NCBI GenBank assembly: GCA_947624235.1
Contig: CANQJK010000004.1
Location: forward strand, 1 to 50,200
DNA length: 50,200 nt
Reading direction: 5' to 3'
Source of the DNA: an uncultured Clostridia bacterium
Lineage (GTDB): Bacteria; Bacillota; Clostridia; Christensenellales; CAG-314
Shown: positions 4,195 through 37,724 of the stretch, in pieces
Layout of the letters: the number at the start of each line of letters is the position of its first letter
How positions within the stretch are numbered: position 1 is the first letter of the stretch
Program-made: the position numbers and the translations under genes
Notes under the pieces: model-generated
The model's input: the letters and a program-made list of their open reading frames with translations, nothing else
Database searches by the model: none
What the model was told of the DNA's origin: nothing

Positions 4195-4788
4195 ATGAAC
4201 AAGTCCGAAGCAAAATTTCACAACACCGCCGTCAAAATGGACGAGGCGCTTGTTGCGTTGTTGGAAGAAAAAGAGTTTTCAGATATTTCTATCATGGATA
4301 TATGCGAAAAGGCGGGCGTCAACCGCTCCACCTTCTACGCGCATTATGATAATTTATTCGACCTGTTAAAGGAAACGCAGGAGCGCGCTGTTTCGGATTT
4401 TTTCGAATCGTTCGGCGCTTCCTTTGGGGCGACTGACTTTTCCAAAATGTCGGCGGACGAACTCATTTTCATTTCACCGCAGTACCTTGTGCCGTATTTG
4501 ACGTTCATCAAGAAAAACAGGCGGTTGTACGAAGTGTACAACAACTCGGGCGCGTTTCAGATAGGCGAAATGGACAAACAGCTCATCGAGAACATCTTTG
4601 TCCCGATCTATGCCAAAAACGGCGTAACGGACAAGCGTATCGTGGAATACATGTCGCATTACTTCATAAGTGGCGTCACAGCCATCACAATGGAGTGGGT
4701 AAAACGCGGGTGCGAGGACGATATTCTGTTCATCTGCGAAATCATTTCCATTTGCGTGCGTCCCTCGGTGAAAGCGCCGTTACAATAA
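4195..4788 (+). CDS. TetR/AcrR family transcriptional regulator
   Basis: A 197-residue protein with a canonical N-terminal TetR helix-turn-helix (about residues 27-55): FSDISIMDICEKAG then VNRSTFYAHYDN. The C-terminal ligand-binding and dimerisation domain (60-197) is helical, ending EWVKRGCEDDILFICEII. The start ATG 4195 is supported by AAAAGGTGAG upstream; a longer frame beginning at 4060 would run across the shared promoter. It is divergent from the two-pair ABC operon, so it most likely represses that operon until a transported compound or its effect is sensed (inference from arrangement). The ligand is unknown. The next gene starts five nt after its stop, so both are likely co-transcribed. 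Confidence 0.9.
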   Translation: MNKSEAKFHNTAVKMDEALVALLEEKEFSDISIMDICEKAGVNRSTFYAHYDNLFDLLKETQERAVSDFFESFGASFGATDFSKMSADELIFISPQYLVPYLTFIKKNRRLYEVYNNSGAFQIGEMDKQLIENIFVPIYAKNGVTDKRIVEYMSHYFISGVTAITMEWVKRGCEDDILFICEIISICVRPSVKAPLQ

Positions 4789-4793
4789 AGAAT

Positions 4794-5708
4794 ATGAAAA
4801 AAATTTTTGACTTTTTCAAAAAGCCCCCGTTGTGGTTTTTGACGTTGATTGCCGTCGTAGGGATAGGCGCAACCGTCGGCGGTACGCTCATCTTAACGCA
4901 AGATGATCTGTTCTCATACATTGTGTTGGGATATGTTTGCCTCGGCATTATGGCTGTGGCGGTCGGATATTGCGTGTACGGCGTTATCAAGAGCCTTTCC
5001 GATTGGAACGAACGGGTGTTGAAGTGGTCCGAAAACAAGCCGTTTTGGAACAGACTTTTCACCGAATACGGCTTCCGCGCCATTCTGTTCTCCGTCGGCT
5101 CGTTCGCTATCAATCTTGCGTTCGCCGTCTACAACGGATCAGTCGCCATCGTCATTCATTCCATTTGGTTCGGCGCGCTTGCAACATATTATATTCTGCT
5201 CATTGTGCTTCGCGGATCGATCATCGTGTATTATGCAAAGCGCAACAAAGCCGTCAAAGCGGGGCAAACGGAAGAAGTGACGGAATTGAAAGATAAACGC
5301 GTTTATCTCGTTTGCGGTGTGGTTTTGCTATTGCTTCCGATAGCCCTTTCCTTTGCCATTTTGCAAATGGTGCGCGCAAACGATTCGTTTGTTCATACGG
5401 GCATTACGATCTATGCCTATGCGATTTACGCTTTTTATAAAATTACCATAGCCGTTTATAATTTTGTCAAGACGAGGCGTACAAAAGAAATGGCGGTGCG
5501 GGCGTCGAAAAATATCAACCTTGCCGACGCTATGGTGTCCATTCTCGCATTGCAAACGGCAATGTTTCACGAGTTCGGCACGGCAGGCGATGTGGTCGAT
5601 GTCGCCACCATGAACGCGGTAACGGGCGCCGTCGTCTGTGTGTTGACTGCGATCATGGGTATTTTTATGATCGTAAACGCCACAAAAAAATCAAGTGGCA
5701 ATAAATAA
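4794..5708 (+). CDS. Predicted 8-TM membrane protein of unknown function
   Basis: A 304-residue integral membrane protein. Hydrophobic segments lie near residues 13-33, 40-64, 92-115, 120-142, 168-190, 200-222, 240-258 and 275-298, separated by short charged loops; the loop after segment 2 contains NERVLKWSENKPFWNR. I recognise no catalytic or transport motif. ATG 4794 begins five nt after the TetR stop, with no strong ribosome binding site of its own, which fits translational coupling to the regulator. The TetR-membrane-protein pairing suggests it belongs to the same stress or immunity response as the divergent ABC operon, but that is only context. Confidence 0.7.
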   Translation: MKKIFDFFKKPPLWFLTLIAVVGIGATVGGTLILTQDDLFSYIVLGYVCLGIMAVAVGYCVYGVIKSLSDWNERVLKWSENKPFWNRLFTEYGFRAILFSVGSFAINLAFAVYNGSVAIVIHSIWFGALATYYILLIVLRGSIIVYYAKRNKAVKAGQTEEVTELKDKRVYLVCGVVLLLLPIALSFAILQMVRANDSFVHTGITIYAYAIYAFYKITIAVYNFVKTRRTKEMAVRASKNINLADAMVSILALQTAMFHEFGTAGDVVDVATMNAVTGAVVCVLTAIMGIFMIVNATKKSSGNK

Positions 5709-6016
5709 ATTTTTAATATGGACATTGGAAAACGTGGACTGTCGCATTAAACATTTTTTATACAAATTTGACATCAAAAACGGCTTGAAAATATTGATTT
5801 CAAGTCGCTTTTTTGTATAATTATTCATTTTTTTATCGTTTATGCGATCAATGCGACAGCCCTTTTTTATTGAAAGTGATTTAATAGTAAAAAATATGTA
5901 TATTGATGTTCACTGTATTTGGTAGTATAATTATAAATGATACAGCGTTCATTTTTGTGTGCACGCGCAAAGTATCACGTTCAATACTTAAAATTGAGTT
6001 TTTGTGAGGGAAACCC
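5709..6016 (+). promoter_or_regulatory. Intergenic region with promoter of glycerol-3-phosphate operon
   Basis: No gene is present in these 308 nt. The first half is the nested palindrome. The second half holds TTGATG (5903-5908), a 17-nt spacer and a perfect TATAAT (5926-5931). The predicted start near 5938 gives a leader of about 79 nt. At the start of the leader TGATAC pairs with a later GTATCA across about 27 nt, a possible operator or 5' hairpin. GAGGG lies before the ATG at 6017. Confidence 0.65.
5730..5870 (+). repeat. Nested palindromic intergenic element, copy A (terminator)
   Basis: Three nested inverted repeats share one centre: CTGTCGCATT (5739-5748) with AATGCGACAG (5850-5859); TTATACAAA (5758-5766) with TTTGTATAA (5812-5820); and CGGCTTGAAA (5781-5790) with TTTCAAGTCG (5798-5807), followed by TTTTTT. 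The inner hairpin is a plausible terminator for the TetR/membrane-protein unit. Homologous elements occur at 31440-31545 (same orientation) and 37725-37832 (opposite orientation). Confidence 0.8.
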
Positions 6017-12744: not shown

Positions 12745-12775
12745 TTGACAAGTGGGGGGGGGTATAAGGTATTAT
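12745..12775 (+). promoter_or_regulatory. Promoter of giant lipoprotein with G9 tract in the spacer
   Basis: A consensus -35 TTGACA (12745-12750) is separated from a -10 TATTAT (12770-12775) by 19 nt. The spacer contains nine consecutive G (12754-12762). Loss of two G would give the optimal 17-nt spacing, so tract slippage is predicted to tune transcription. A TATAAT at 12779-12784 lacks a -35 at the right distance. A good AAAGGAG site precedes the ATG at 12812. Confidence 0.6.
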
Positions 12776-12811
12776 AGATATAATATACTAACAGTAAGAA
12801 AGGAGCAGATT

Positions 12812-15800
12812 ATGAAAAAAATCCGTTCTAATAAAATACTTTTGATTTTGACTTTGGCGTTTGTCTTGTCTTTGACAACGGCGCTGTTGTTTGCCTGCGC
12901 ACCGCACATCGTGGAAGAAAAGCGCACGGTAACCTTTATGAACGGCGACGTGGTGTACGCACAGCAAGAAGTCAAGTTGGGCGAGAAGTATTCATTCCCC
13001 TCTGTCAACCCCACGCGGGAACAGCCCGACGACGAACACCTGATGGAATTTGTCGGTTGGACGCTGGATCCCAACTACTACGAATATCGTAGCGAGATCC
13101 TGACCGAACCGGATTTTGTCGTGGCAAACTTGACTATTTACGCGGCGTTTCGCACTGTTGCGATAAGCGACACTCCCGGCAAGGGAGAGGATCTCAGCTA
13201 CAACGTTGAGTTCCGCATGCCACGCGGAGAGGACTTCGGAGAATTGTCGGGCACGACGCTTACGGAGTTTTCGCAGGAAGTCAAGCGTTACGGCAACGCC
13301 GTCGTGCCCACCGACGAGGATATGCCCCAAATCAAGGGCTATCACTTCACGGGAGAGTGGGTAGGCGGTACGTTGCAAGATATTCGCGGTAACAGGCGCG
13401 TAACTGCCGTCTACGAAAAGAACACCTACAATTACGTTTGGCACTACCTCGGTGAGACTTCTACACGCGAGGTGCTCTTCCGCGACGCCGTCGATTTGAC
13501 GGAACAGCCGACGGTGGAAGACGCATTTGTATTTGACGGTTGGTACACCGACAGTGAGTTTCAAACAAAAGCCTCGTTGACGGAGATACCCGACGGCGAT
13601 GTGGAGTTGTACGCCAAGTATCACATAGATTTCAGCACGGTCACCGTCGCCAAGGAAGGCACGATGGTGTACGGCGACAGCGAAAACAACTTGTTCGTTA
13701 CCGGTCTGAAAGAGTGCGAGGGGCTGGAATACACCTTTGAGTGGAAGTTGAACGATCAATCGTTCGAAAAGTCCGCCGTGCGCAATCACTATGTAAAAGA
13801 GGCGGGCGATTACGTTGTTTCGGTGCGCATATACGCCGACTACAAAGATGGCACGCTTTTGGATAGCGCCGACGCCAAAACAGAGCAAGGCTCGACGCAA
13901 TTTGTATATACATTGGACAAGGCAACATTGAATGCCGTCGTCACCCTTTCCGCAAGTTCGGTAGAATACGGAAGCGAGGCTCCCGTTGCCGATATCGTTT
14001 ACAGCGGATTTGTGTTTGGCGAAACCGCTCAGGAAGTGGGAGTGGGACAAGCCTTCGTTTATATGCAAGGGGACGCGGAAGTTTCCGCTCAAAAACTCCA
14101 TGCGGGCACCTATCGCGTGGAAACAATTCCCACCGTGCTTCAAAACTACAAATTTGCAACGATCGATGCGCCTGTGTTCACCGTCACCGCCAAGGATCTG
14201 ACGGTAAGCGCAAAAGTCACCGTGCAAAATTACACCTACGGCGACGGCTTTGCCTACGATGTTACGTTTGACGGGTTCGTCGAGGAGTACGGCGACAACG
14301 TCGATGTTCTCGGTGAGCATTGGTTTACGTTGGACGGCGCAGGCAAGTATGTGGGCGGAGAGCTTTTCCATGCGGGAGACCACGCCGTACAGCTTTGCGG
14401 TTACGCCTCCGACGACTACAATGTGCTTTTGCCCGAAGAGATCGAATTTACTGTTGCAAAACGCCATGCAGAAGCCACCCTTTTTGCCGAGGGCGGAATT
14501 TACGGCGTTATTCCGCAAATAACCTACGCTTTCGACAACGTGCTAAAACAGGACGAAGAGCGTTTTGTTCCCACCTATACATATAGGCGCGCAAACAACC
14601 CCTACACGGCGATCAACAACCGATTTGTAGTGGGCGACTACACGGTCGACGCGACCTTTGCGGAAAACGGTTTTGACGATTACGAACCCCTTGTCGTCAC
14701 GGGCGACGCTTTTACCATTGTCAAAAAGCAACTCAAAGTAAGCGTATCCGTACAAGACAGCTACACCTACGGCGACAAAGTAAATCCCTCGCCCGTTTAC
14801 GAGCAGGCTTTTGAATTCGGCGAAAGCCAAAACACCGAAGGGCTTGTCAAGGGAAATATTTCTTACAGATTTTTCGATTCTCGTAAACAGTCGTACACGC
14901 GCAACACCTACGTTGTGGATACCTACACCATAGAGGCATTCGGCATATCTTCGGATAACTACGAATTCGTTTTTGAGCAGGGAACGTTTTCCGTTACCAA
15001 AAAGTCGCTTGTTTTGACTGTTAGCCTTGTTTCCGATACTGTCAAGTACGGCGAAACGGACAAGATCGTCGGCAACATATCCTACAACGGGTTTGTGGAG
15101 GGCGAATCGGCAAGTAGCGTGTTCGGCAAAAATTTGCCGACGGTTTACTACACCGACGCCGAAGGTCAAACCACAAGCGTATTCCATGCGGGCACTTATA
15201 CCGCCACCACGACGGCAGATCCCCAAAACTATGCGGTAACGGTGGTGACTGCCACGCTGAACGTTGTCAAACGCTCGCTGTTTGTGGGAATAACGCTCAA
15301 TTACCAAACAGTCGTTTACGGCAATAAACCAAGCTCTACTATCGTCTACCGCAAGGACGGCTTTGACGGATTTGTGCCCGGCGAACAAACGTTGTACACA
15401 TCTCAGGCTTATGTGCTGTACAGCGGAGAACAGAGTTACACGCAAAACGCACTTGTTCAAAGCGCGACCAAAATGTCTGTGGGCAACTATACGCTTTCAG
15501 TACAAGGTATAGACGAAACAATTACAAAAGACTACGAAGTCACCTACCAACATCAAACGGACGCATTGCAATTTTCCGTTACGCCCGCGCAACTCACCGT
15601 TACCGTCAAGTCGGATAGCGCCGAGTACATTTACGGCGAAACGCCTCGTTTTGACATAACTATCAAAGGGTTTGCCTACGACGAAAACGCTCAGACGCTT
15701 TTCGGAGAAAAAGCCAATACTATTGTTTACATGAGCGACGGCAAACAGGTGCAAGTGGGCAAATATATAAACGTCGGTAGCTACACGGCGACGCTCAACG

Positions 15801-18800
15801 GAATTGAAAACTCCAACTACACGGTGGAAATGCACAATTCCGAATTTCGCGTTGACAAAAAGGAATTGAAACTTCAACTGTCCGTAGCTAACTTTGTTTA
15901 CGGAGGCGCTCCCTCTTTGCAATTGAGCTACAACGGCTTTGTCGAGGGCGAAAACACCGACATTCTTGAAGGTAGTGCGGTGTACAGTTACAAATGGAAC
16001 CGCAACGCGGGAGAGGAAAAACAGTCCTATTCGCCCGAAAACTACAAACTGTTCCAAGCGGGATCCTACACGGTATCCGTCGGCGGTTTTTCAAGCGACA
16101 ACTACAACGTTGTTGAGGCAAGCGACGATTTCACCGTTTCCAAGCGCAACTTCACCGTTACGGTGACGGCAAAGAGCATCGCTTACGGAGACGCACCCGA
16201 CTACGGTTATACTACTACCGTGTTGGAGGACGACAAGGAAAGTTTCGATTTCCGTTACGTTCTCACCTTCACACGCACGTCGCAAAATTACCAAACATAT
16301 GACGTGTCGGCATACCCCTACTATCAGGCGGGCAACTATCGCGTAAACATAAGCTACACTCTCAACCCCAACTACAACGAATATGCGGTGCAATTCAAAG
16401 CCTTCACGGTAAGCAAAAAAACGCTCACCGTGGGCGTAAGCGGAGTGGACGCTTCCTATGTGTACGGAGAAAAAATAACGCCTCATTTGACGTTTGACGG
16501 CTGGGTAGCGGGAGAAAGCGAACAGAGCAAGGATATTTTCACCGCCCGTCCCGCAAACGAGTTTACCTACAACAGAAACAAAAACTCGCTCGGCGTTTTC
16601 GATGTGGGCAACTACACCGTTTCGGCAACTCGCGGTTACACAACGCTCAACTACAATGTGGTATCAGCACAGCCAACGTCTTTCAACGTTACGCCCAAGG
16701 CGCTCAAAATAGGCGTCACCGTGCAGGATATCATCTACGGTGCAACGCCCGCTCCCAAACTTGTGTACGAAGGTCTGCTCAAAGGGGACGAGGGCAGTTT
16801 GGACGTTAGCGGTGTAACATATACCTACGAAGGCAACCTTGTAGACGGTGTGTTCCACGCAGGCGAGTATCAAGCAAGCGTAAGCGGAATAACCTCTCGC
16901 AACTACACCGTGACTTTCGGCGAAAAGGTGCAGTTCAGCGTGGGCAAAAAGGACCTTGCATTCAACGTGACGATCGTCCGCAACTCCATCACATACGGCG
17001 AATATCTCGTGGTGGAAACAAGCTACAACGGGTTCGTTCTCGGCGACGGCATAAGCGCGCTGAACGGAGCGCTTGTAATAAGCGTTGACGGCGACGCGTT
17101 CGACCAAAAGGCGTTGTATCACGGCGGAGAACACAACGTAACGTTGTCGGGCTATTCTTCCGACGACTACACGATAAGTTACGGTAGCGTAACGTTTACG
17201 GTAAACAAAAAAGTTCTCACCCACACCCTTCGCTACGAAAAGAGCATCGAATACGGCACGGAATACACTCCGTCTGTAACATTCGATGGCTTTGTCGAGG
17301 GCGAAAGCGTTCAAAACATAGGAAAGGTCGAGTTCTCCTACGGCGACAGCGCAAAGAGCGCCGGCGGTTTTTGGCGCGTTGGTACGCACAGCGTGTCCGT
17401 AGAAGGTTTGTATTCCGAGGACTACGAAATTCCCGAAATAAAATTCAGTTTCGAAGTGACTCCGCGCACGGTCACTATTCAATTCAACAATGTGTGGAAA
17501 ACCTACGCAGACGATATCGACGGCTTTACCTGGTACACTCTCGGAGGAGATGAAATACTCAACGACGGCGCCGAATTGCGTTTCGAAACGTCCGTTACGA
17601 GAAACAGCGTTCGCTACGACAAAGGAAGTGCTCCGTTCTACGACGCAGGTAACTACGTTGTCACGGTGAGTTATGTTATCAACCCCGACTATACGGTAAA
17701 ACAAGGAGAAACGGTGCTTCAAGGCAGTGTTTCCAACACGTTTACCATACAAAAACGAACAATAAACGCCAACATGCTGGACCAAACGGTCACTTTTGCA
17801 AATTGTGAAGCGTGGAAGGGCAATGTTTCCGTCAGAGATCCGCAAAACAAATTGAACGGCAAATTGGTAATAAAGGGCGACATCGTGCTCAAAGACGCGC
17901 AACACGCCGACGTTACCACTTACAGCGACACGTCCATAGGCGATCACTTTGTATGGAAGAACGGCGAATATACTATATCCTATAATGATAGTGATATAAC
18001 AGACAATATTATATTGTCCTACAATTTGAGGCTTGCGATCACTTCTGCATTTTTGCCGAAACTTCCTTCAAGCGAGGATATGCACTTTGTATATGACAAA
18101 ACGGCGCACCGCTTTGAAGTGACGGCAACTGCGGACGGCATAGATCAAAGCGAGATATCGGTAGAATACAGTATCGGCAACAAGGACAACTATTCTGCCC
18201 CCGTACCCGAATTTTCCGATGCGGGCACCTACACGGTGTACTACAAGATCAGTGCAAAAGAACACCCGAGTCTCACGGCGGACGAGGGCGAGTTCGTCGT
18301 TACGATCGACAAAAAGGAAGTCCAAGTGCCCGACGTCAAAGGAACGGTGTACAACGCTACGTTGCAAAAAGCAGATGTTGTCGGCACCGACGAGTACGAA
18401 GTAAGCGAAAACAACGGCGGTACAAACGCAGACAGCTACAACGTCGTATTCAAGTTGATAAATGTTGACAACTACAAATGGATGGGCGAAGAGGACGGAC
18501 AAGCCACCGTTACGCGTCAATTTGTAATTGCAAAGGCAACCCTGACTCGTCCGAGCGCTACCGCTGGACAAAACCTTGTCTACAACGGAACGGAGCAGGA
18601 GTATCTTATCGACCTCAAAGGGCAGGATGCAAAACTGTTCGATATTGTTGGCAACAAGCAAAAGGATGCGGACGATTACAGCGTGACGATAACGCTTCAC
18701 GACGAAGCAAACTACAAGTGGGCAAGCGGTGCAGAAAAGGACGCGATCACATTGTCCTATTCCATTGCAAAGGCAACGCTTACTCTCGGCAAACAAGGCG

Positions 18801-21800
18801 CCCTCACATTTACCTTTGACGGAAGCGATCACTTTGTTGCTTATCAACAAACCAACGTCAAGGGGTTGAAAGGCGACGATACGGTTACGTTGACATACAG
18901 CCGTGAACGAAACGGCAGTTACACTGACGCGCTTACTCTGCGCGATTACAGCGACAGGGGAGCGGTTTACGTCAAGGCGGACGCAGGCAAAAACTACAAC
19001 ATTGCGTACACCGATTATTCCGTCACCGTTATCAAAGCTGATTACAATGTGTCTGTCACAAAGGAACAGACTCACACTTACGACAAGCAACCGTTCGGCA
19101 CGGGCGTTGCCGTAAGCGGTGCAGAACACGACGAACATTTTGAGGGTAGCTACACGCTCTTGTACAACCAAAGCGACAGCGTTGCTCCTCAATACACCAA
19201 TTGGCAAAGTGGCGGTTACACGGTGGGTTACTCTATAACGGGCAACGCCAACTACAACGACGTAAACAGCAGTTACAAAATAGTGATAGAAAAGAGAAAC
19301 TTCGATGTGACCGCTGTGTCCGACGACGTAGCCAATGTGTACGACAACACGTTGAAGGGACGCACTGCTGAGCAGATCAAGGCGCTTATCCAAGGTGTTT
19401 GCGAAGGCGACTCTTTCACGGTAACAGTAAAGAATGCGTCTCAAAGCACCGTAGCGGTGGCAGAATACGACGTAAGCTACGAAGTGGGCGGAAACGCCAA
19501 CTACAACACCGTCAGCGCAACGTACAAGTTTGCCGTTGCAAAAGCAAAACCCGAAATCAACTTCGAAGATATCGGTCAAGACAAGCTTGTTTACAACAGC
19601 GATTCCGACAACAAGGTGTTGATCCGACAGGCTATCTCCTTTGAGCATATCTACGACGACAATCACGAGGTGTGGTATCGCGCCACCAAGAATCTCGCAA
19701 ACGGCATCGTGCCGACTTCGCTGGAAGATGAAGGTTGGGTTCGTTCGATAGACGAGATACAAATAAACGGCGCAGGCGAGTACACGTTGGAAATAAAGGT
19801 TCAAGGCGACAACTACACCGAGAAAACCATATCCAAGACAATTGAAATAGCCAAGGCTGAGGGCAAAATATCGGTAGATGACATCCAGGAAAGTTTCGAT
19901 TACAACGGCACGGAACAAACGGTAACGGGCGCAAGCGCCAACCATTCCGAAAGCGAACTTGTGTACGAAGGCAACTCCTTTACCGATGTTCCCAAAGGCG
20001 GAAAACTCACATTTACCATCATCTTGCCCGAAAGCGACAACTACAAAGAGGCGAAAGTACAACACACCGTAATCGTCAACAAAGCTCAGGCGCGCATCGG
20101 TACAAGCGAAATGGCAAAAGAGTACACCTACAACGGCAACACCCAAACGGTAAAAGGCGCAACGGCGCAAGGGCTTGAAGGCGTAGAGTTGAAGGGTATA
20201 GGTGAAATCACCTACAAAAACAATACGTTCTTGGATGTTCCCGAAGGTGGCAAACAAATAGTTACTATCATACTTTCCGAAGGAGATAACTATCTCGGAG
20301 AGACCATAGATGACTTTGAAATTACCATCAACAAGGCAGAGTACACTGTTAAGCTTCCCGAAAAGCTAAATTGGACTTATAACGGCGTATCATACGACAT
20401 GAGGGTTACCGTCACGGGTGTAGACGGCAACGCGGTAAGCGGTGCAACCGTCACTTACAGCGGAGAAGGCGTTCCGAGCGACGCGCAAATTATCAATTAT
20501 CGACTAAACGGGTACGAAGTGACATATACCGTTGCGGAAACTGCCAACTACGAACAAGCAAGTTCTACCTTCCATGTTAGAGTATATCAAGCAACCCCGC
20601 AATTGAAGTCGGTAGACAACGAAGACACCTACATTTACGACAAAGATGTTTCCAACCACGTCACCGAGGAGGAAATTCGCAACGCCGTGATAACAGGCAA
20701 TGTGTATAGCGACGCAAAAGTAACGTTCAAAGTAAACGGCGGTGCTTTCTCCGAGTCGATCGCCGATGGCGCTACCAAAAACGCCAATAAGTACACAATC
20801 ACGGTGCATGTCGAAGGCGACAACTATGTCAGTGTGAAAGACGTCACCTACACGTTTACGGTATCGCCCAAGCATGTCAAGGTACAATTGACAACACCTC
20901 AAAACACTCCCGACTACGACGGTACCTACGACGGTACGCCGAAAAGCGGAGGTACCATTGAAATCATCGATGACGCTGTTCTCAGCAAGCAGATATACGT
21001 CACATATCCCGATGGTAGCAGAGTGCTCTCTGAAATTATCCCGTCCGTTGTAGATGCGGGCACATACAAGGTGGATATTGACATAGTGTCTACGAGTAAC
21101 TACTATATCGATTCCGACGACGATAACGAAGAAACCACTGGCAATTACAGTTACAGTTACGAGTTTAAGATCGCCAAGGCAACGTTTACTGTCGAGGTTC
21201 ACGATGTTTCCACCTATTACGATGGCAAAGACCACTTTGTCGAATTGACAAAGGACAATGTTAAAGGTTTGCACAAATCGGACGACAAAATAAAGGTAAC
21301 GTACAGCACAGAAGAAAAAGGCACATATGGCGACGCATGGGAGATAAAAAATGCAACAGAAGGCTCTAAAGAGGGTTATGTTGTTGTGTGGTACACAGTA
21401 AGCGTTGTAAGAGAAGATAACAAAGACAACTACAATGAAGTTACGGGATCCTACAAAGTTACCATCAACAAGGCAACGCCGACGGTTCCTCAACTGCCCG
21501 ATATAGCAGAGCAAATCAATCGCTATGACAAAAAGCTCAGCGACGTCAAGCTTCCCAAATATTTCAGCTGGAAGGACGGTTCCGCGCCTCTTGTGTTGGG
21601 CAACAACAAGTACAACGCTTTGTACAACCCAAACAGCCAAAATTACAATGATTTGGCAGTGGAGATCTCCTTCAACACGCGCAAGGAAAAAATAACCGTC
21701 ACATACGACGAAAAGCCGTTTGAAACGACCTACAATGTAGATGTTGACGCTTTTTCACACATCACGTTTACAAATGAAGACGGCGAAGTGCTTTCAAAGG

Positions 21801-24800
21801 AAGAACTTGCTCTGATCAACGGTATTGTTGACGGCTACACCAAGACAATCGGTAGCACCTACTTGGGAAATGTAACGTTTAGTTGCTCCAACAACTACTT
21901 TACACTTGAGACGACTCAATTCAACAATGTGGTTATCAAGGTCAAAACAGTCGATGTCGGTGGTACGTTGTACACAATTGAGGACGCGCTCAACGTCGCA
22001 AAAAACGGCACAATTACTGTAAAATACAACACTTCGTTTGCGGACAAGGAAACGGCAAAATTTGCCGGTTATTGCAATGGCGACGGCTCTCAAAAGAGCG
22101 AGTACTACACCGTCAAGAACGGCGTAACCTTGCTGTTGCCGTATAGCGCAGATGATACAGTTGGAAATGTTTATATCTCGACTACGGATAATCCAAGTTT
22201 GAATAGCAATTTCAACAATTCGTCAAAATATATCACATTATATATATCGAAAGAAACAACACTTTCCAACCTTGGAACCATAATTGTTGGCGGAGTGACA
22301 GGGGCAACAATTACAAACCCGATTGCCGGAGATATCTCCGCAGGGTATAGCGAAATTTCTTTGGACGGAGTTATCAATTCTACCGGAACCATCACGGTAT
22401 ATGGTAATATAATCGGAACAGGAACTATAAATGCGACAAGCGGAACTGTTCGCGAAAGAATGGTAATTACCGATTGGCCCGGAGGTAGACAGGCAGGCGG
22501 AAGATTTGTCGGTAATAAGACCGTTAGTGCTACTAAGTTTCTAGGGGGTTACAGTGAAAAAGATCCTAATGAATTTCCGTTTGAGCAATATAAACTTCAA
22601 GCAATAAACGGCCCCAAACTCAATGTGTATTATGGTGCAAACTATCTTGGAAACGTGCGTATTTACACTGGAATTGTTGAAACATCTGTCGGCACATTAC
22701 CACCTCGTTTGTCCATTGTGGACTTGACAATCGTAACAAAAGCAAACGGCAATTCTGCTGATGGACTGTTCGGTTTGAAAGAAGGAAGTGTTTATACGAA
22801 ACAGGTTGTAGACGGAAGAGAAAAAGTTACCATAACTAATGGTGTCGTTGGAGGCATTACGGGTATTAATATGGTTATTGGAAACGTGATGATAGTTGGC
22901 GAACTTAGTGTAGATATGGATACATCAAACGTCAAATTCCCCATTCCGTCACACGTTGATTTGACCTTTAATGGAGGTAATTCGGAATTTTATTACGGTT
23001 ATGAGTTTATGCCAAGCTCATCTGTTGTGTTAACTAACGATGCCGTTGTAACATTAAACGATCTTGATGATGGTGTGATATTGTACGATACCGCAACTGT
23101 CAGTATTGAATCCGGTTGTAGGCTTGTTGTAAACGGTGCAATTGGCGGACAAATCAATGGTCAAAATGGTGCCGAGGTGGTATTTGGTAGTGGCGCCAAA
23201 ACTGTTGCTACCGGTTATCGTGGCGGTCAAGGTGGTATTGAAATTGAAGGTATTGATTGTAAATGTTCATTCTCTGGCACTTTGGAGGAAAAACAAGCCC
23301 ACGGAAAACTATTGAACGGTGACGGCGCATTTGCGCAAGGTCAAACCTACTACTACAAGAATAACGCTTGGTATTCGGAAAATACCGAATTCAATGTTCA
23401 GTACGAATTTATGCTTCGTAACGAGGACGGAACAACCACGGCGTTTACCGAAAGCGGATTTACAAACGACAATGTGACGCACTACGTTTTAGGCGGTACC
23501 TATGCGTTGCAGAACATCGATTTCGATGGTTACACGTTCCTCGGTTGGTACACCAATGCCGATTGCAGTGCAGAGTACAGAATTGAACAAATCGTCGGTT
23601 CTAACTATTTCGGTGATATCACGCTGTACGGTTTGTTTGAGAAAAAATCAGAGAATAACCTCTACATCACTTACAGTATCGACAAGGAAGGCTATGACAG
23701 CGTCAAATATGTACCGATAACGTTGCCTCGCGATGACATATCCGCTTTCGATCCGTTTGAGGACGAGTGGTTGACAAAAGACGACTACAATGTTGACATC
23801 GGCACATACTTTGGCGGTTGGGAGATCGTCGCTAATGGTGAAACGTTGGCAACATGCACCGACGTTGATTCGCTCAGAGCAAAACTGCTCGAAATCGACG
23901 GCGGAACGGAAGTTACACTTAAAGTTAATTGGGAAAACAAGAATGAAATTAAAGTTTTGCGTAACAGTAATGCAAGCAGTGACAAGCAGTATTTGAAAAT
24001 CACAGTAAAATACAAACAGGGAGAGACTGAAACAACATGGATTTCTGAAAGCACTGCGTCGACGGAAGGCTCCATCTATGTTTTAACCGGAACGAGCATG
24101 ACGATTACATTAGATGTTACGGCCAAAGATGGGAGTGCGCACGGTGGATATAAAGATCCTTGGATTTCCATAAACAATGACAAGAAGTATAGTACCACAG
24201 AACAAACAATATCTATTGAGTCGAATACGACAATAGAGTATGGCGGAACATATGTGAAAAAAGACACCTGCTTTGTCCAAGGCACGCTTATCATGCTTGC
24301 AGACGGCACTTCAAAACCTGTTGAGTTGTTGACGGAAAGCGATCAAATTGTTGTGTTCAATCATGATACCGGTAAATACGAGATTAGCACATTAAGGTTC
24401 AACATTCACGCTGACGAAGAAGCGAGGGAATATCAACTGTTGAGATTGCTGTTCTCGGACGGCACCGAGTTGACAATAGCCAATTACCACGGATTGTTTG
24501 ACAGAACATTACGAAAGTATGTTGTAATTGATGCCGACAATTTCCATGACTATATCGGACATGAGTTTAGTAGCGTCAGGTATGTTGATGGTCAATATGT
24601 TGACGCGCGTGTTACATTGAAATCCGTGGTTGTCTACTACGATACGGTAAAGGTGTACTCACCCATTTCGAACGGTCAAATGAATGTTGTGGCAGAAGGC
24701 TTGCTTACGATGACACCCATCCCTGGTATCAGAGAATTTCTTGTGAACATGTTTGAATATAACGATGACATGTCTTATAATGAAGAAAAGAAACAAAAAG

Positions 24801-24979
24801 ATATAGAACAATACGGTCTGCTGACATATGAAGAGGTAAAAGATTACATGTCGTATGAAGAATGGTTGAAAGCACCCAACCAATACTTGAAAGTCTGTAT
24901 CGGTAAGGGGCTGTTGACCATGGACGACATCCTGTGGATAATTGACTATTTGACAAATGGTGCATACTGGGATATCTAA
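12812..24979 (+). CDS. Giant MBG-repeat surface lipoprotein with C-terminal Hint domain
   Basis: A 4055-residue exported protein. The signal peptide ends in a lipobox-like LLFAC (Cys29), so the N-terminus is probably lipid-anchored outside the membrane. Two InlB/Flg_new-type repeats follow (GWTLDP, GWYTDSEF; about residues 35-270). Then come about 29 MBG-type domains of 75-100 residues (about 365-2960), each starting L-x-V-x-V...YG and ending F-x-V-x-K. A Gly/Asn/Thr-rich beta-helix-like stretch (about 3050-3510) and two more InlB-like repeats (GWYTNADC, GGWEIV) come next. The C-terminus is a Hint domain starting at Cys3820 (CFVQGTLIMLADG). Start: ATG 12812 with AAAGGAG upstream; an ORF extension to 12752 lies inside the promoter. 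Likely a long fibre or adhesin; ligand unknown. The next gene follows after 69 nt with no obvious terminator. Confidence 0.9.
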   Translation: MKKIRSNKILLILTLAFVLSLTTALLFACAPHIVEEKRTVTFMNGDVVYAQQEVKLGEKYSFPSVNPTREQPDDEHLMEFVGWTLDPNYYEYRSEILTEPDFVVANLTIYAAFRTVAISDTPGKGEDLSYNVEFRMPRGEDFGELSGTTLTEFSQEVKRYGNAVVPTDEDMPQIKGYHFTGEWVGGTLQDIRGNRRVTAVYEKNTYNYVWHYLGETSTREVLFRDAVDLTEQPTVEDAFVFDGWYTDSEFQTKASLTEIPDGDVELYAKYHIDFSTVTVAKEGTMVYGDSENNLFVTGLKECEGLEYTFEWKLNDQSFEKSAVRNHYVKEAGDYVVSVRIYADYKDGTLLDSADAKTEQGSTQFVYTLDKATLNAVVTLSASSVEYGSEAPVADIVYSGFVFGETAQEVGVGQAFVYMQGDAEVSAQKLHAGTYRVETIPTVLQNYKFATIDAPVFTVTAKDLTVSAKVTVQNYTYGDGFAYDVTFDGFVEEYGDNVDVLGEHWFTLDGAGKYVGGELFHAGDHAVQLCGYASDDYNVLLPEEIEFTVAKRHAEATLFAEGGIYGVIPQITYAFDNVLKQDEERFVPTYTYRRANNPYTAINNRFVVGDYTVDATFAENGFDDYEPLVVTGDAFTIVKKQLKVSVSVQDSYTYGDKVNPSPVYEQAFEFGESQNTEGLVKGNISYRFFDSRKQSYTRNTYVVDTYTIEAFGISSDNYEFVFEQGTFSVTKKSLVLTVSLVSDTVKYGETDKIVGNISYNGFVEGESASSVFGKNLPTVYYTDAEGQTTSVFHAGTYTATTTADPQNYAVTVVTATLNVVKRSLFVGITLNYQTVVYGNKPSSTIVYRKDGFDGFVPGEQTLYTSQAYVLYSGEQSYTQNALVQSATKMSVGNYTLSVQGIDETITKDYEVTYQHQTDALQFSVTPAQLTVTVKSDSAEYIYGETPRFDITIKGFAYDENAQTLFGEKANTIVYMSDGKQVQVGKYINVGSYTATLNGIENSNYTVEMHNSEFRVDKKELKLQLSVANFVYGGAPSLQLSYNGFVEGENTDILEGSAVYSYKWNRNAGEEKQSYSPENYKLFQAGSYTVSVGGFSSDNYNVVEASDDFTVSKRNFTVTVTAKSIAYGDAPDYGYTTTVLEDDKESFDFRYVLTFTRTSQNYQTYDVSAYPYYQAGNYRVNISYTLNPNYNEYAVQFKAFTVSKKTLTVGVSGVDASYVYGEKITPHLTFDGWVAGESEQSKDIFTARPANEFTYNRNKNSLGVFDVGNYTVSATRGYTTLNYNVVSAQPTSFNVTPKALKIGVTVQDIIYGATPAPKLVYEGLLKGDEGSLDVSGVTYTYEGNLVDGVFHAGEYQASVSGITSRNYTVTFGEKVQFSVGKKDLAFNVTIVRNSITYGEYLVVETSYNGFVLGDGISALNGALVISVDGDAFDQKALYHGGEHNVTLSGYSSDDYTISYGSVTFTVNKKVLTHTLRYEKSIEYGTEYTPSVTFDGFVEGESVQNIGKVEFSYGDSAKSAGGFWRVGTHSVSVEGLYSEDYEIPEIKFSFEVTPRTVTIQFNNVWKTYADDIDGFTWYTLGGDEILNDGAELRFETSVTRNSVRYDKGSAPFYDAGNYVVTVSYVINPDYTVKQGETVLQGSVSNTFTIQKRTINANMLDQTVTFANCEAWKGNVSVRDPQNKLNGKLVIKGDIVLKDAQHADVTTYSDTSIGDHFVWKNGEYTISYNDSDITDNIILSYNLRLAITSAFLPKLPSSEDMHFVYDKTAHRFEVTATADGIDQSEISVEYSIGNKDNYSAPVPEFSDAGTYTVYYKISAKEHPSLTADEGEFVVTIDKKEVQVPDVKGTVYNATLQKADVVGTDEYEVSENNGGTNADSYNVVFKLINVDNYKWMGEEDGQATVTRQFVIAKATLTRPSATAGQNLVYNGTEQEYLIDLKGQDAKLFDIVGNKQKDADDYSVTITLHDEANYKWASGAEKDAITLSYSIAKATLTLGKQGALTFTFDGSDHFVAYQQTNVKGLKGDDTVTLTYSRERNGSYTDALTLRDYSDRGAVYVKADAGKNYNIAYTDYSVTVIKADYNVSVTKEQTHTYDKQPFGTGVAVSGAEHDEHFEGSYTLLYNQSDSVAPQYTNWQSGGYTVGYSITGNANYNDVNSSYKIVIEKRNFDVTAVSDDVANVYDNTLKGRTAEQIKALIQGVCEGDSFTVTVKNASQSTVAVAEYDVSYEVGGNANYNTVSATYKFAVAKAKPEINFEDIGQDKLVYNSDSDNKVLIRQAISFEHIYDDNHEVWYRATKNLANGIVPTSLEDEGWVRSIDEIQINGAGEYTLEIKVQGDNYTEKTISKTIEIAKAEGKISVDDIQESFDYNGTEQTVTGASANHSESELVYEGNSFTDVPKGGKLTFTIILPESDNYKEAKVQHTVIVNKAQARIGTSEMAKEYTYNGNTQTVKGATAQGLEGVELKGIGEITYKNNTFLDVPEGGKQIVTIILSEGDNYLGETIDDFEITINKAEYTVKLPEKLNWTYNGVSYDMRVTVTGVDGNAVSGATVTYSGEGVPSDAQIINYRLNGYEVTYTVAETANYEQASSTFHVRVYQATPQLKSVDNEDTYIYDKDVSNHVTEEEIRNAVITGNVYSDAKVTFKVNGGAFSESIADGATKNANKYTITVHVEGDNYVSVKDVTYTFTVSPKHVKVQLTTPQNTPDYDGTYDGTPKSGGTIEIIDDAVLSKQIYVTYPDGSRVLSEIIPSVVDAGTYKVDIDIVSTSNYYIDSDDDNEETTGNYSYSYEFKIAKATFTVEVHDVSTYYDGKDHFVELTKDNVKGLHKSDDKIKVTYSTEEKGTYGDAWEIKNATEGSKEGYVVVWYTVSVVREDNKDNYNEVTGSYKVTINKATPTVPQLPDIAEQINRYDKKLSDVKLPKYFSWKDGSAPLVLGNNKYNALYNPNSQNYNDLAVEISFNTRKEKITVTYDEKPFETTYNVDVDAFSHITFTNEDGEVLSKEELALINGIVDGYTKTIGSTYLGNVTFSCSNNYFTLETTQFNNVVIKVKTVDVGGTLYTIEDALNVAKNGTITVKYNTSFADKETAKFAGYCNGDGSQKSEYYTVKNGVTLLLPYSADDTVGNVYISTTDNPSLNSNFNNSSKYITLYISKETTLSNLGTIIVGGVTGATITNPIAGDISAGYSEISLDGVINSTGTITVYGNIIGTGTINATSGTVRERMVITDWPGGRQAGGRFVGNKTVSATKFLGGYSEKDPNEFPFEQYKLQAINGPKLNVYYGANYLGNVRIYTGIVETSVGTLPPRLSIVDLTIVTKANGNSADGLFGLKEGSVYTKQVVDGREKVTITNGVVGGITGINMVIGNVMIVGELSVDMDTSNVKFPIPSHVDLTFNGGNSEFYYGYEFMPSSSVVLTNDAVVTLNDLDDGVILYDTATVSIESGCRLVVNGAIGGQINGQNGAEVVFGSGAKTVATGYRGGQGGIEIEGIDCKCSFSGTLEEKQAHGKLLNGDGAFAQGQTYYYKNNAWYSENTEFNVQYEFMLRNEDGTTTAFTESGFTNDNVTHYVLGGTYALQNIDFDGYTFLGWYTNADCSAEYRIEQIVGSNYFGDITLYGLFEKKSENNLYITYSIDKEGYDSVKYVPITLPRDDISAFDPFEDEWLTKDDYNVDIGTYFGGWEIVANGETLATCTDVDSLRAKLLEIDGGTEVTLKVNWENKNEIKVLRNSNASSDKQYLKITVKYKQGETETTWISESTASTEGSIYVLTGTSMTITLDVTAKDGSAHGGYKDPWISINNDKKYSTTEQTISIESNTTIEYGGTYVKKDTCFVQGTLIMLADGTSKPVELLTESDQIVVFNHDTGKYEISTLRFNIHADEEAREYQLLRLLFSDGTELTIANYHGLFDRTLRKYVVIDADNFHDYIGHEFSSVRYVDGQYVDARVTLKSVVVYYDTVKVYSPISNGQMNVVAEGLLTMTPIPGIREFLVNMFEYNDDMSYNEEKKQKDIEQYGLLTYEEVKDYMSYEEWLKAPNQYLKVCIGKGLLTMDDILWIIDYLTNGAYWDI
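13920..21690 (+). repeat. Array of about 29 MBG-type domain repeats within the giant gene
   Basis: The translated region divides into consecutive beta-sandwich units. Units 1-15 (to about 18050) are about 85-95 residues with the pattern 'YG...F-x-GFVxGE...HAGxYxVxxxGxxSxNYxV...FxVxK'. Later units are shorter, with 'YNGTEQ' or 'YDGK' openings and 'GDNY' or 'ANYN' before the last strand. Repeats diverge strongly, so the array looks old rather than freshly expanded. Confidence 0.8.
24269..24720 (+). other. Hint (hedgehog/intein) domain coding region
   Basis: The translation starts with nucleophile Cys3820 in CFVQGTLIMLADGTSKPVEL, the standard Hint block A. It continues with VVFNHDTGKYE and the block-B-like TIANYHGLFD, whose His3893 is the expected acyl-shift catalyst. 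The final strand reads SPISNGQMNVVAEGLLT and lacks the His-Asn pair needed for protein splicing. This supports N-terminal thioester cleavage, as in hedgehog-type Hint domains, rather than splicing. About 85 residues follow, with no recognised toxin fold. Confidence 0.8.
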
Positions 24980-26560: not shown

Positions 26561-28232
26561 ATTCAATCAGGTGGGATCCATTTTGCGCAAACAGGCGCAA
26601 GAACGCGGTTCCGCTTTCAAAAAAGGATATTTCGACGGGTTTGGATTTGCCATACGATTGATCCTCGTTGTAGTGTTTCTTGCGGTGTTTGTGGTGTTTT
26701 TCGGCAGATTTACCGATATATACCTTTCCGTAAAAACCAACGGTATGTTGCAGGAAAGTACCCGTCTTTACGAGCTGTTTGCCATGGTGTACACCGTCAT
26801 TTTGGTGTTTTTGGTGGTAGGCGGTGTGGGGCAGATAAACCGTCAACTTTTTGACGCGGACGACATGAAGGTGCTTGTGGGTATGCCTCTCGGGGCAAGC
26901 ACGGTGTTTGTTGCAAAACTTATCACCATCTACTTTGAGCAACTGTTGATATCCGTTGTCTGCGTGATTGCCGTCAACGTAACCGTGTCGTTGCATGTGG
27001 CTCAAACGGCGTTGTTCTACGTTGTAACGGCAATGTTCTGCTTCATTTTGCCCCTCATTTCCCTTGCGCTATCCGCGCTTGTGGCAATGCCGTTCCATGC
27101 GATAAAGCAATTTCTCAAAAACAAATTTATACTTCAATTTGTGCTTATTACACTGCTTACCGCGGTGGTGTTCTACGCATATTCGTCCATTTTGAATGCG
27201 GTGCGCGACATGTTGCTCGGCGATTCGCTCAAATTCTTCTTCAACGAACAGGTGATGAACACTATGCAAGCGGTAACCGCCTATCTGTATCCCGCTTTGT
27301 GGTTTGCGGATATTTTGCTCGGCAACAATTTGTTGATCGCGTATTTGTCCCTGTTTTCGGTGGTAATTGTAAGTTTGGTGGTGGCAATGCTCGTCATTCG
27401 CCGGTTGATGGTGTGGGTGATGCAATCGCGCATTGCGGGCGACGTCAACTTTATGAGGACAAAGCAAAACATTGCGCCTCGCCGTCATCCCTTCCTTGCG
27501 TTGATGAAAAAGGACTTTTTGCTCATTTTCCGCACCCCATCCTACACATTTTCCTATTTCAGCGTTGCCGTGCTTATGCCTCTTATGGTGTATTTTTGCA
27601 TGACTGTGGGTTCCTCTATCGTGGAAAAACTCATCGGCATGAACTGCAACCTCGAATTGGCTGTGTTCCTCACGCTTATGTTCGGCGCGCTGACAAATAT
27701 CTTTTGCTCCACCAATATCAGCCGTGACGGTGAAATGTTCTTTTCCGTCAAGGCGTACCCGTTGGGATACAAGTATGTGTTTTTCAGCAAAGTGGTGCTG
27801 TGCATGCTTGTAACTACCGCGTCTCAACTTATATCGGCAATTTTGCTTGCGTCTTTCGGCTACGTTGCTTGGTGGCAAGCGCTGTTTATCTTGCTCGGCG
27901 GTTTGCTGTGCGGTTTTGCGCAGGTTTGTTTTGCCACGCGTTACGATTTCAACCATGCAAAGTTTTCCACCGAGGAGGACGGCGAAATAAAGGAATCGGG
28001 CAACACCGTATCCGTCATAATCGTGGTGGGAATGTTTTCCTCTTTCGTTATCGGCGGAAGCGTGCTTTTGATGCGCCTTATGTTTGCTTTGCGCCTTGTG
28101 ACGGGCTTGGAATTTTTGACGTACCTCATTGTGGGCGTCGTATCCGCCCTTATCGCCGTGCTCAGCTACATTTATTTGACGCGCAAATTGAGCGTCAAAT
28201 ATCACGAGTTTAGCGGAGGAGGCAGTCTATGA
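26544..28232 (+). CDS. Multi-pass ABC transporter permease (about 12 TM)
   Basis: A 562-residue integral membrane protein with about twelve hydrophobic segments in two halves, joined near residue 300 by a cytoplasmic loop (MRTKQNIAPRRHPFLALMKKD). The size and arrangement resemble large ABC-2-type permeases of Bacillota. The loop QLFDADDMKVLVGMPLGAS after the third segment is typical of that class. The gene starts inside the upstream ATPase gene and overlaps the downstream exoprotein gene by four nt (ATGA), so ATPase, permease and exoprotein are coupled. The substrate is not evident; the flanking genes encode very large exported proteins or their modifiers. Confidence 0.85.
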   Translation: MKDKIKFNQVGSILRKQAQERGSAFKKGYFDGFGFAIRLILVVVFLAVFVVFFGRFTDIYLSVKTNGMLQESTRLYELFAMVYTVILVFLVVGGVGQINRQLFDADDMKVLVGMPLGASTVFVAKLITIYFEQLLISVVCVIAVNVTVSLHVAQTALFYVVTAMFCFILPLISLALSALVAMPFHAIKQFLKNKFILQFVLITLLTAVVFYAYSSILNAVRDMLLGDSLKFFFNEQVMNTMQAVTAYLYPALWFADILLGNNLLIAYLSLFSVVIVSLVVAMLVIRRLMVWVMQSRIAGDVNFMRTKQNIAPRRHPFLALMKKDFLLIFRTPSYTFSYFSVAVLMPLMVYFCMTVGSSIVEKLIGMNCNLELAVFLTLMFGALTNIFCSTNISRDGEMFFSVKAYPLGYKYVFFSKVVLCMLVTTASQLISAILLASFGYVAWWQALFILLGGLLCGFAQVCFATRYDFNHAKFSTEEDGEIKESGNTVSVIIVVGMFSSFVIGGSVLLMRLMFALRLVTGLEFLTYLIVGVVSALIAVLSYIYLTRKLSVKYHEFSGGGSL

Positions 28233-31200
28233 GAAAGAATATTATTGCTTTGATGCTTGTTTTGCCCATTTTGTTTGTGCTTGTCGTTTACGGAGCCGTC
28301 AATGTGTCCAGTCTTGACGTAGACATATCGGCAAACGGTATCGAGATCATGGAACGCTATCCCAACGACACGATAAGCATCGACCTTGCCGATTACGACG
28401 ACAGCTACGAGATCACTCCCGTGGTTACGCCCAACAACGCTACCAATACCGATTTTGAGTACCGTTACGAACTTGTAAGCGGATCCGCAACCGAGGAAGA
28501 AGTGGCTTTGGGTGGCGTGGTGCAGGTGGTACGCGCCGAAAAACAGGGCGAGGCGGACAAAATAGTGGCAAACGGCGTAGGCACGGTGCGTATCGTGGCT
28601 GTCAGCAAAGACGGCGGTTACGAGGACAGCATAACGGCAATCGTAGGCTCTTCCAAGCCCTATGCCTTCGACTTTTCCATGTACAACGACGCAACAAGCA
28701 AGCAAAATCTTTTGTCCGACGAAAATCTCGGATACACCGCAAAAGTATCTACGGGCAGTTACGGTTTCGATGTCAAACTAAAACCCAACACGCACATAAG
28801 CCCCGTTTTTGACGTAAAAAGCGGATTTGTCGTGACGGATCAGGCACGCGGAAGCATCACGCTTCCCTTTACGGGAGACGTTGTTTTCGACGTCAAAATT
28901 CCCAACGGCGTAAAGGGCGAACTAACAAAGCATGTGCAACTTTCCGTCACCAATCCAAGCCTCACGGCGGACAATTTCTCCGTCAACGGCAGTGTGGAAA
29001 ACAATCCCACCGTTCGCTTTGACAGAGAGTCCGGCCACGCCGAGTTTTACGTCGAGTCGTCAAGCAAACCTCGGGTGGAGTGCTATGACGCTCAAAATAT
29101 CGCCGTCGAACAGGTAACAGGCACTCAAAACGGTTGGAAAGTCTCGGCGGAACTGAGTGACGCGCGCGAGGGCGACAGTTTCGAATTTTACGTTACCGTC
29201 GGCGAACGCAACAAGACGGTAAACGTCAACGCGGTGGAGTTCGACTTTACCATTCGTACGGATATTCCCAATTTCGACATAGAAAAAGGCACCAATATTC
29301 TTATGGGTACGGAAATCTCCTTCTATGCCACTCCCATCGAGGTAGCAACGGGCGTTACCTACAAGTGGGATTTCATCAATCTTAACGACGACAAGTTGTT
29401 GGAACGCACCGTCGGCGAGGACGGCTCCGTGTGCTCGATGATCGCGCACGAACGCGACAAGTTCATTGTGGTGGTGGAAGCGTACCGTAACGGCGAGCCT
29501 ATCCCCAACATCGACGCCAAGGAAGTGGAAGTAGAGGTTATCAACAACGTTGTGGGCGCAACGGGCATCGACACCAACGTGGGACTTGCCAAGAGCCTTG
29601 CCGTGCCCGGTTACAAGTATGTAGACGGACGCAAAACGGACAACTTGTTCCCCGTCAAGATCAACGCGCACAGCCCGTCGGGCGCCCTTGCAGACGGTAT
29701 TTACGACTTCGACTACTCGGTGGACAACACCTCAGTCGCCCGTATTGTCACCAACGAGCTTGGCGAAACGCTCATCGACGAGGAAAACAGCTGTATCTTC
29801 CTTGAAACGCGCGGAAAAGGCATAGTGACTGTAACAGCCGACTGGAAGGGCAATTCCGATTGGCGCGTAAACGAACCTTACACTCGTTACGAGGTGCAGT
29901 TTACCGTTGACAGCGAAGCGGTGGAAGTTACCACCAGCGATCAGTTGTTTGCGGAAACGGAAGCGGGCAATCCGATAGTTCTCGGCGCCGACATCATGCT
30001 CGGCACAAACGACAACGGACAGCCTTTGTCTCTCGATCAACGCCTTGCCATGCTAAAAACAATGAAGTCCACCTACAACACGCAGTTCTACGAGGATATG
30101 GGTTACAGCGATCGCGCGGTAGTCAATTACGTTGTGGAATTCAAAAACGACGTCTACGGCAACGGTCACTCCGTTTGCGGAGAGTATTTCTCGCACGACG
30201 TGGACGGCAACGACATCCCGAGGATATTCAAGGGACCGCTGTATCTGGTGGCGATGGGCGATCTTGCCAGCGTGGCCGCTCAGGACAACATTGTGTTCTT
30301 GTGCAGAACGGACGGAGTTACGATACACAACGCAACGCTTTTGGGTTGCAGTGACAGCTCGCGCACCAATCCAGACACAGGTCTGGACGATTTGACGAGG
30401 TTGGATTACACGGGTACCGTGTTGGAAATAAATGCCGATGTTAACGTGCTCAACTGCCGTGTGCGCAATGGGCGCAACGCAGTGCGCGTCTACGGAGCCA
30501 ACCGCAATGGCGACAAATATTTTGTGGACGCCCTTTCGCAAAGCACCGTAACATCGCAGGATAGAGCCGTGGTGCGTATTGAAGGATGTATTTTGTCTCA
30601 CAGTCGCGAATTTGTGCTCAAATTGGGCGCCAACAGGGCATTGCGCTCATCCAACGGCAACAGAGAACCCTATCTCACCGACCGCAACGGCAATCGCTAC
30701 GATTCGCAAACGGACAGCTATCTCAACGACGACTTCTTCTATCAGGCATATGTGCTTACAGACATCACTTTGTCCGATACGGTTTTGGAAAAGAGCGGAC
30801 TGTTCTGTGTGGGAGTGGAAAGCAACTTCGCGGGCGAAATGCTCTGCCCCGACAACAGGTTTGCAAGCGACGAAAATTACAGCGAGTTGCTCAAAGGTTG
30901 GACGCATGTGGGCGGTACCTCGTTTGCCACCGTTCTTCGTTTGCAAGGCGATGTTCGCATGTACGACTGGAAAGATCTTGCCAATGTAAACAGCGACACC
31001 CTTATTCAGTCGGGTGGCGGACTGCCCATCAAGTTGGATCTCGCGTCGATGATAGATTATATGAGCATGCAAAAGCCCGATGAAATAGGTCCCATTGTCG
31101 AAAGGGACGGCGACAACAAGTACGTTCACGGCGGAATAGCGGTGTACGGCGGAGGTCGCAACTACTCGCAAATAGATATCGCCGAGCTTAACGCCGAAAG

Positions 31201-31402
31201 AAAGGACGGTCTGTTGGAGTTTAAGATAAACATCTCCGAATTGGAAGGCGCCGAAGGCGACGCAGGCGGTATAGGACAATATCTGCCTCTTGCCGCTGGC
31301 ACACAGGATTTCCGTTTCTTCATGTACTCGAAAACGGGTTCCAACAACAGAAATTGGCAGGCAAACGCCAACTACGACGTTATCCCCGTTTCTTTCAAAT
31401 AG
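28229..31402 (+). CDS. Exported beta-rich protein with C-terminal beta-helix, linked to ABC transporter
   Basis: A 1057-residue protein with a single N-terminal hydrophobic segment (residues 4-24, no lipobox Cys), so it is membrane-anchored or secreted. Residues about 30-560 are a chain of Ig/Big-like beta modules (SGSATEEEVALGGVV, SVDNTSVARIVTNELG). Residues about 570-900 resemble a right-handed parallel beta-helix: repeats such as VVNYVVEFKNDVYGNG, VTIHNATLLGC, VLEINADVNVLNCRVRNG and VVRIEGCILSHS. The last 150 residues are less regular. I recognise no catalytic motif. Translational coupling to the ABC permease suggests it is a substrate, a periplasmic-side partner or a surface receptor of that transporter. 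The nested palindrome copy B follows and likely ends the transcript. Confidence 0.75.
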   Translation: MRKNIIALMLVLPILFVLVVYGAVNVSSLDVDISANGIEIMERYPNDTISIDLADYDDSYEITPVVTPNNATNTDFEYRYELVSGSATEEEVALGGVVQVVRAEKQGEADKIVANGVGTVRIVAVSKDGGYEDSITAIVGSSKPYAFDFSMYNDATSKQNLLSDENLGYTAKVSTGSYGFDVKLKPNTHISPVFDVKSGFVVTDQARGSITLPFTGDVVFDVKIPNGVKGELTKHVQLSVTNPSLTADNFSVNGSVENNPTVRFDRESGHAEFYVESSSKPRVECYDAQNIAVEQVTGTQNGWKVSAELSDAREGDSFEFYVTVGERNKTVNVNAVEFDFTIRTDIPNFDIEKGTNILMGTEISFYATPIEVATGVTYKWDFINLNDDKLLERTVGEDGSVCSMIAHERDKFIVVVEAYRNGEPIPNIDAKEVEVEVINNVVGATGIDTNVGLAKSLAVPGYKYVDGRKTDNLFPVKINAHSPSGALADGIYDFDYSVDNTSVARIVTNELGETLIDEENSCIFLETRGKGIVTVTADWKGNSDWRVNEPYTRYEVQFTVDSEAVEVTTSDQLFAETEAGNPIVLGADIMLGTNDNGQPLSLDQRLAMLKTMKSTYNTQFYEDMGYSDRAVVNYVVEFKNDVYGNGHSVCGEYFSHDVDGNDIPRIFKGPLYLVAMGDLASVAAQDNIVFLCRTDGVTIHNATLLGCSDSSRTNPDTGLDDLTRLDYTGTVLEINADVNVLNCRVRNGRNAVRVYGANRNGDKYFVDALSQSTVTSQDRAVVRIEGCILSHSREFVLKLGANRALRSSNGNREPYLTDRNGNRYDSQTDSYLNDDFFYQAYVLTDITLSDTVLEKSGLFCVGVESNFAGEMLCPDNRFASDENYSELLKGWTHVGGTSFATVLRLQGDVRMYDWKDLANVNSDTLIQSGGGLPIKLDLASMIDYMSMQKPDEIGPIVERDGDNKYVHGGIAVYGGGRNYSQIDIAELNAERKDGLLEFKINISELEGAEGDAGGIGQYLPLAAGTQDFRFFMYSKTGSNNRNWQANANYDVIPVSFK

Positions 31403-31545: not shown

Positions 31546-31601
31546 AGCTGAGCCGTTTGTAACAGCGCTATTTTACTTTGAGACAAAATGCGCCGTAGTA
31601 C

Positions 31602-37702: not shown

Positions 37703-37724
37703 ACGTAGCAACTTTTTCGGATCG

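Follow-up and report, generated by a model that had tools for sequence, protein, structure and literature searches.

The window, meaning the whole stretch of 50,200 nucleotides that we analyzed, is one complete contig (C4) of a 1.66-Mb genome assembled in 94 contigs from an uncultured Clostridia bacterium. It contains three related intergenic elements, each starting 14–38 nt past the 3' end of a gene. Copy A (5735–5866, plus strand) has upstream of it a gene without a Pfam match (4695–5708, plus strand), copy B (31440–31558, plus strand) another gene without a Pfam match (28229–31402, plus strand), and copy C, which is inverted (37716–37840, minus strand), a TrkH cation transporter gene (36215–37702, plus strand). 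These limits were set by a covariance model, R1, built from 20 copies of the element, under which copy A scored 160 bits and the decayed copies B and C scored 58 and 58.5 bits. The initial annotation had proposed that the three elements form one family, lie just behind genes and share flanks beyond a hairpin core; all of this was borne out, with B and C similar to A outside the hairpin yet far more diverged (79% identity to A for copy C). A search of the window against Rfam gave a single match, a tRNA. Other features of the window include a minus-strand tRNA-Thr(GGT) gene with a 48-nt partial repeat, 94% identical and 146 bp away (47624–47671, 47748–47823), and an internally repetitive open frame of 4075 aa (12752–24979), probably a giant surface protein.

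Copy A carries the three nested inverted repeats first described for it and is indeed the nearest to intact of the three copies. Its outer repeat consists of a left TIR, GGACTGTCGCATT (5736–5748, plus strand), which is common to IS ends, and a right TIR, AATGCGACAGCCC (5850–5862, plus strand), followed by a T-run. The middle repeat has arms TATACAAA (5759–5766, plus strand) and TTTGTATA (5812–5819, plus strand). The innermost is the core stem, with arms CGGCTTGAAA (5781–5790) and TTTCAAGTCG (5798–5807), set in a unit of A-tract, 10-bp stem, 7-nt loop and T-tract (5776–5814) that is terminator-like on both strands by terminator scan, folds and stem conservation. Copy B has a perfect core stem, CGACTTGAAA (31481–31490) and TTTCAAGTCG (31496–31505), with A- and T-tracts, and copy C has CGACTTGAAA (37768–37777) and TTTCAAGCCG (37786–37795). 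The hairpins of all three fold on both strands, with z = -5.5 and -6.6 for copy A relative to shuffles and z = -8.0 and -7.1 for the core of copy B. The family consensus reads GGGGCTGTCGCATTAAACATTTTTTATACAAAATGACATCAAAAA-CGGCTTGAAA-loop-TTTCAAGTCG-CTTTTTTGTATAATTATTCATTTTTTATCGTTTATGCGATCAATGCGACAGCCCC. Two copies in another genome (L107 and L124, in G001) have the family TIRs around a different core hairpin (AAAAAGACGCTGAAAAATATGTATTTCAACGTCTTTTT).

The three copies in the window are not alone. With strands merged, the covariance model placed the ~130-bp element at a minimum of about 84 distinct sites in its own genome, so that the contrary outcome envisaged at the outset, no more copies and no similarity beyond the core, is itself refuted. 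Used as a DNA query, copy A matched ~22 places over most of its length at 80–100% identity, among them a copy 97% identical to it, and ~20 further places in part. The core pattern CGRCTTGAAA-N2-12-TTTCAAGYCG occurred at 45 genome sites, against none for the reversed control pattern. The covariance-model matches listed represent 16 of the 25 genus genomes; by DNA search, 11 of the 24 other genus genomes matched the family, and 16 genomes from elsewhere in the order gave no match. Viral contigs searched with the protein left of copy A gave no match. The element carries no transposase gene, has TIRs of 13–14 bp and is present in many copies, as is characteristic of a MITE. Both the existence of the family and its location at gene ends are firm.

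To score the genes on either side of each copy, we called genes by a simple method based on codon usage. Both sides could be scored at 73 sites, of which 40 lay between convergent genes and 33 between tandem genes, with none between divergent genes and none within genes; in 31 of the 33 tandem cases the copy was closer to the stop of the upstream gene. Copy-free intergenic regions of the same loci comprised 20 divergent and 2 convergent ones, a rough control given that the loci were picked around copies. Because convergent and divergent junctions are equal in number on a circular chromosome, 40 against 0 is not a chance result. Recent IS insertions likewise favored gene 3' ends (15 of 19), which implies that at least part of the bias stems from insertion or early purging instead of later recruitment, and that location bias alone is no proof of recruitment. 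We also considered an outward promoter as the main role, since TTGATT-16-TATAAT overlaps the core, and rejected it: copies at tandem sites show no bias in orientation (18 with, 15 against), and the commoner sites are the convergent ones, contrary to such a reading.

Each of the 21 young copies, and 61 of the 62 old ones, had an A-tract before the stem and a T-tract after it. Intrinsic terminators that work in both directions have this layout, and the stem-loop with its T-tract lies behind a gene. Compared with copy A, old copies had stem identities of 0.89–0.97, loop identities of 0.37–0.47 and TIR identities of 0.56–0.65. Ascertainment of the conserved stem was checked with a model of the right arm only (E ≤ 0.01): 21 old copies picked by that arm alone gave 0.94 and 0.88 for the stem, 0.37 for the loop, and 0.59 and 0.64 for the TIRs. 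Among all 51 right-arm matches, 43 retained the core, in four another element had broken into the core or pushed it aside, two were of a 54-bp mosaic form and two were without a core. Stem changes often preserve pairing, a few of them compensatory, as in CGGCTGGAAA/TTTCCAGTCG (C6) and CGATTTGAAA/TTCAAATCG (C37). Retention of the stem and pairing-preserving changes support its use as a terminator. Together with gene-end position and tracts on both sides, they favor the proposal that the elements were recruited as bidirectional terminators; from form, place and conservation, we infer that transcription would terminate at the cores. The letters of the stem are conserved beyond the need of pairing; a further, sequence-specific factor may read them, or copies may refresh one another. 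Separately, at C21:23881–23960 (L221) a coreless right arm falls within a short open frame (MSTKTMTPIVYSIIVLSFVQSTRQIC), perhaps the start of a gene joined to what is left of an element.

The TIR also links the family to a candidate mobilizer. The sequence GGGGCTGTCGCRTTAA lies at the ends of IS copies in four genomes of the genus and likewise in L171, a locus of a Clostridia MAG. In the four genus genomes, namely G021, G011, G002 and the element's own, with three such places, the TIR opens a longer element. These longer elements mostly run into contig ends, as expected of a recent multi-copy IS. One IS copy in the own genome (contig C43) retains an 84-aa transposase start; IS ends and this fragment were all that the own genome yielded, and a complete IS was recovered nowhere in the genus genomes examined. 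The fragment gave no match in the viral contigs searched. A complete relative with 56% identity was found in the Clostridia MAG RGIG3953 from roe deer cecum (L171:2875–4707, 1.8 kb), with TIRs GGGGCTGTCGCATTAA and GGGGCTGTCGCAAGTGG. Its 515-aa transposase matched NF033551 (IS1182 family) at 352.6 bits, with a cut-off of 270, as well as PF13751, PF05598 and PF01609. This IS resembles the family in its TIR GGGGCTGTCGCATTAA and its A|T flanks, and differs in being a complete 1.8-kb element with a transposase in another organism, whereas the family has none. The MITE interior does not derive from that of the known IS. On sequence grounds the family is most likely a MITE of an IS1182-family IS, probably moved by an IS with the matching TIR. 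The elements had originally been described as MITE- or REP-like: TIRs, high copy number and the TIR common to IS1182-family IS favor the first half of this description; for the second half, the copies and their TIRs showed nothing specifically REP-like, and the TIR is of IS1182 type. Elsewhere in the genome there are short hairpins of 26–37 bp with GGCTGTCGC arms (C20:1685, C56:8753, C33:78 and, in L230, C66 at about 2520). Several of them (GGCTGTCGCAAGT...ACTTGCGACAGCC) look like the right-hand end of the IS in L171, and the one in L230 takes the place of the core in an old MITE copy, with the arms of that copy on either side.

Target-site duplications, which had been expected of a MITE, were absent: young copies showed no direct repeat beyond that found under permutation. 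Their absence fits a hairpin-replacing mobilizer of IS1182 type, so MITE membership is not excluded by it. The nearest 6 nt flanking young copies were 0.70 A on the left and 0.70 T on the right, falling to 0.40 and 0.45 further out. A residual stem at every site was considered and rejected, as the two outer flanks retained no trace of a stem over and above generic A|T (p 0.80).

What the young copies do reveal is insertion into older members of their own family, with four or five of 20 lying exactly where an old copy has its core. At C33:15922 an older inverted copy lies outside with both arms readable (GTTGCATTGATTGCGTAAACGACAAATAATTATACAAAAC ... GTTTTTGCGCCATTGTGCACAAGCTATTTAATGCGACAACCCC), and the young copy occupies exactly the position of its hairpin. 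C6:42063, C2:1829 and C40:9459 show the same nesting, with one or both outer arms present and the outer hairpin gone; C3:44498 is less clean, half an old stem surviving ~75 bp off. In an anchored alignment against dinucleotide shuffles, the likeness of copy flanks to the arms was highly significant (Fisher p 1e-10 left, 8e-9 right), and control points in intergenic DNA of the window fell below p = 0.05 in 6% and 0% of cases. Inner and outer orientations differ between nested cases, which indicates separate events. In addition, one old copy has an IS end adjoining its right arm, at C55:9518. As to nesting among the copies of relatives, the left flank was supportive in two cases (L046 and L048), negative in two and unscorable in six. 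At the site of copy A, six relatives have the upstream-gene orthologue without the element, with synteny lost there. Loss of a target hairpin was seen at self-nested copies only, where outer arms are present and the hairpin absent. Hairpin replacement at self-nested sites is well supported, and we infer that it extends to non-self sites. The genome also contains nested-palindrome mosaics (C25:19650–20800, L095, and >100 further matches; GCTCGCATATCCCC...CTTCGCTTCGGG / CCTCGTTGCAGATTGTTTTGATTGGGGACA), which often enclose the MITE or its 54-bp coreless form and may have arisen as hairpins inserted into hairpins again and again.

We propose that the family is a non-autonomous MITE mobilized by an IS1182-family transposase that would recognize targets able to form hairpins, for the most part intrinsic terminators at the ends of genes. 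The element would be joined between the A-tract and the T-tract with loss of the target hairpin, leaving no target-site duplication, and its central hairpin with A- and T-tracts, usable on both strands, would take over from the lost terminator, backed up by the TIR stem landing beside the T-tract. The core being itself a hairpin, old copies would serve as targets for new ones and nesting would follow. After insertion, the TIRs and loop would decay while selection retained the stem as the terminator of neighboring genes. We consider it likely that the family is a MITE that an IS1182-family transposase inserts in place of terminator hairpins and that brings a terminator with it. That the element is specialized for terminator exchange, destroying a hairpin, returning a two-way terminator and laying a fresh target, is a more tentative suggestion, for and against which we see nearly equal grounds; if true, one family has taken over gene ends by the dozen and nests its palindromes by recursion.

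Three other explanations have to be weighed against this proposal. The copies could be unrelated terminators made alike by convergence, with no mobile family behind them, given that A-tract, hairpin and T-tract are the natural form of a terminator and that the most decayed sites resemble copy A mainly in the core. However, the likeness extends over 130 bp including TIRs and arms, with up to 97% identity between unrelated sites, and the right-arm model, which contains no core letters, recovers the same sites; convergence is already refuted for the high-scoring copies and, taken as a whole, highly improbable. We also doubt strongly that the core serves mainly to be bound by a small RNA or a sequence-specific protein, with termination secondary. 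Such a role would suit the pattern of change in old copies, where 531 of 616 cells of the stem are unchanged, just five changed on both sides with pairing kept, and the loop is nearly random, but the position right behind genes and the tracts on both sides of old copies fit termination, and related copies in G001 and G013 carry other stem sequences.

A stronger contender, though still an unlikely one, is an IS1182-type MITE that inserts in A/T-rich gene 3' ends without recognizing hairpins, termination being a by-product. A|T flanks without stem remnants are what it would leave, and IS copies too have A-rich left flanks and favor gene 3' ends. Nesting would then reflect landings in A/T-rich old copies whose hairpin had already gone. 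Yet insertion-free loss of the hairpin is rare (2 of 51 right-arm matches, plus the two of the 54-bp mosaic form), old copies make up <1% of the genome and yet received four or five of 20 young copies at their cores, and IS1272, of the same family, is documented as replacing hairpins. Hairpin replacement by a terminator-bearing MITE, the reading that we prefer, suggests that a selfish element may find a nearly harmless niche by taking a gene's stop signal and giving one back. It would provide a source of new bidirectional terminators and would account for nested-palindrome repeats that are otherwise baffling.

Enterobacterial REP and BIME sequences are dispersed intergenic palindromes able to influence transcript ends, REPs being ~35–40 nt long and linked to RAYT transposases. 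The family resembles them as dispersed palindromes between genes and differs in its 130-bp length and IS1182-type TIRs. The BrickBuilt MITE of Porphyromonas gingivalis is likewise intergenic and is discussed in relation to transcription and terminators; it has a minisatellite interior with promoter activity, terminators outside the element, and another size and other ends (PMC4596501). The literature searched (open-licence full texts) contained no high-copy MITE that returns a terminator and serves as a target for itself. The closest known system is IS1272/TnSha1 of Staphylococcus, whose transposase family is that of the IS sharing the TIR here. IS1272 targets inverted repeats or terminators without a sequence consensus, and the stem-loop is removed on insertion with no target duplication (PMC4923244, PMC5678879). 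New insertions are described there at 22–30-bp targets with 9–12-bp arms (PMC5678879); the family core is 27 bp with 10-bp arms. IS1272 is autonomous, whereas the ~130-bp element lacks a transposase and occupies at least about 84 sites, and the excerpts mention neither a terminator of its own nor self-nesting for IS1272, whereas here the terminator-like core doubles as a target. Inverted-repeat-replacing transposition is thus already known; what is new here is a terminator-bearing, self-targeting, high-copy MITE. Hairpin replacement, known from an IS of staphylococci, would then also be the way in which a high-copy MITE inserts in the genomes of gut Clostridia-like bacteria.
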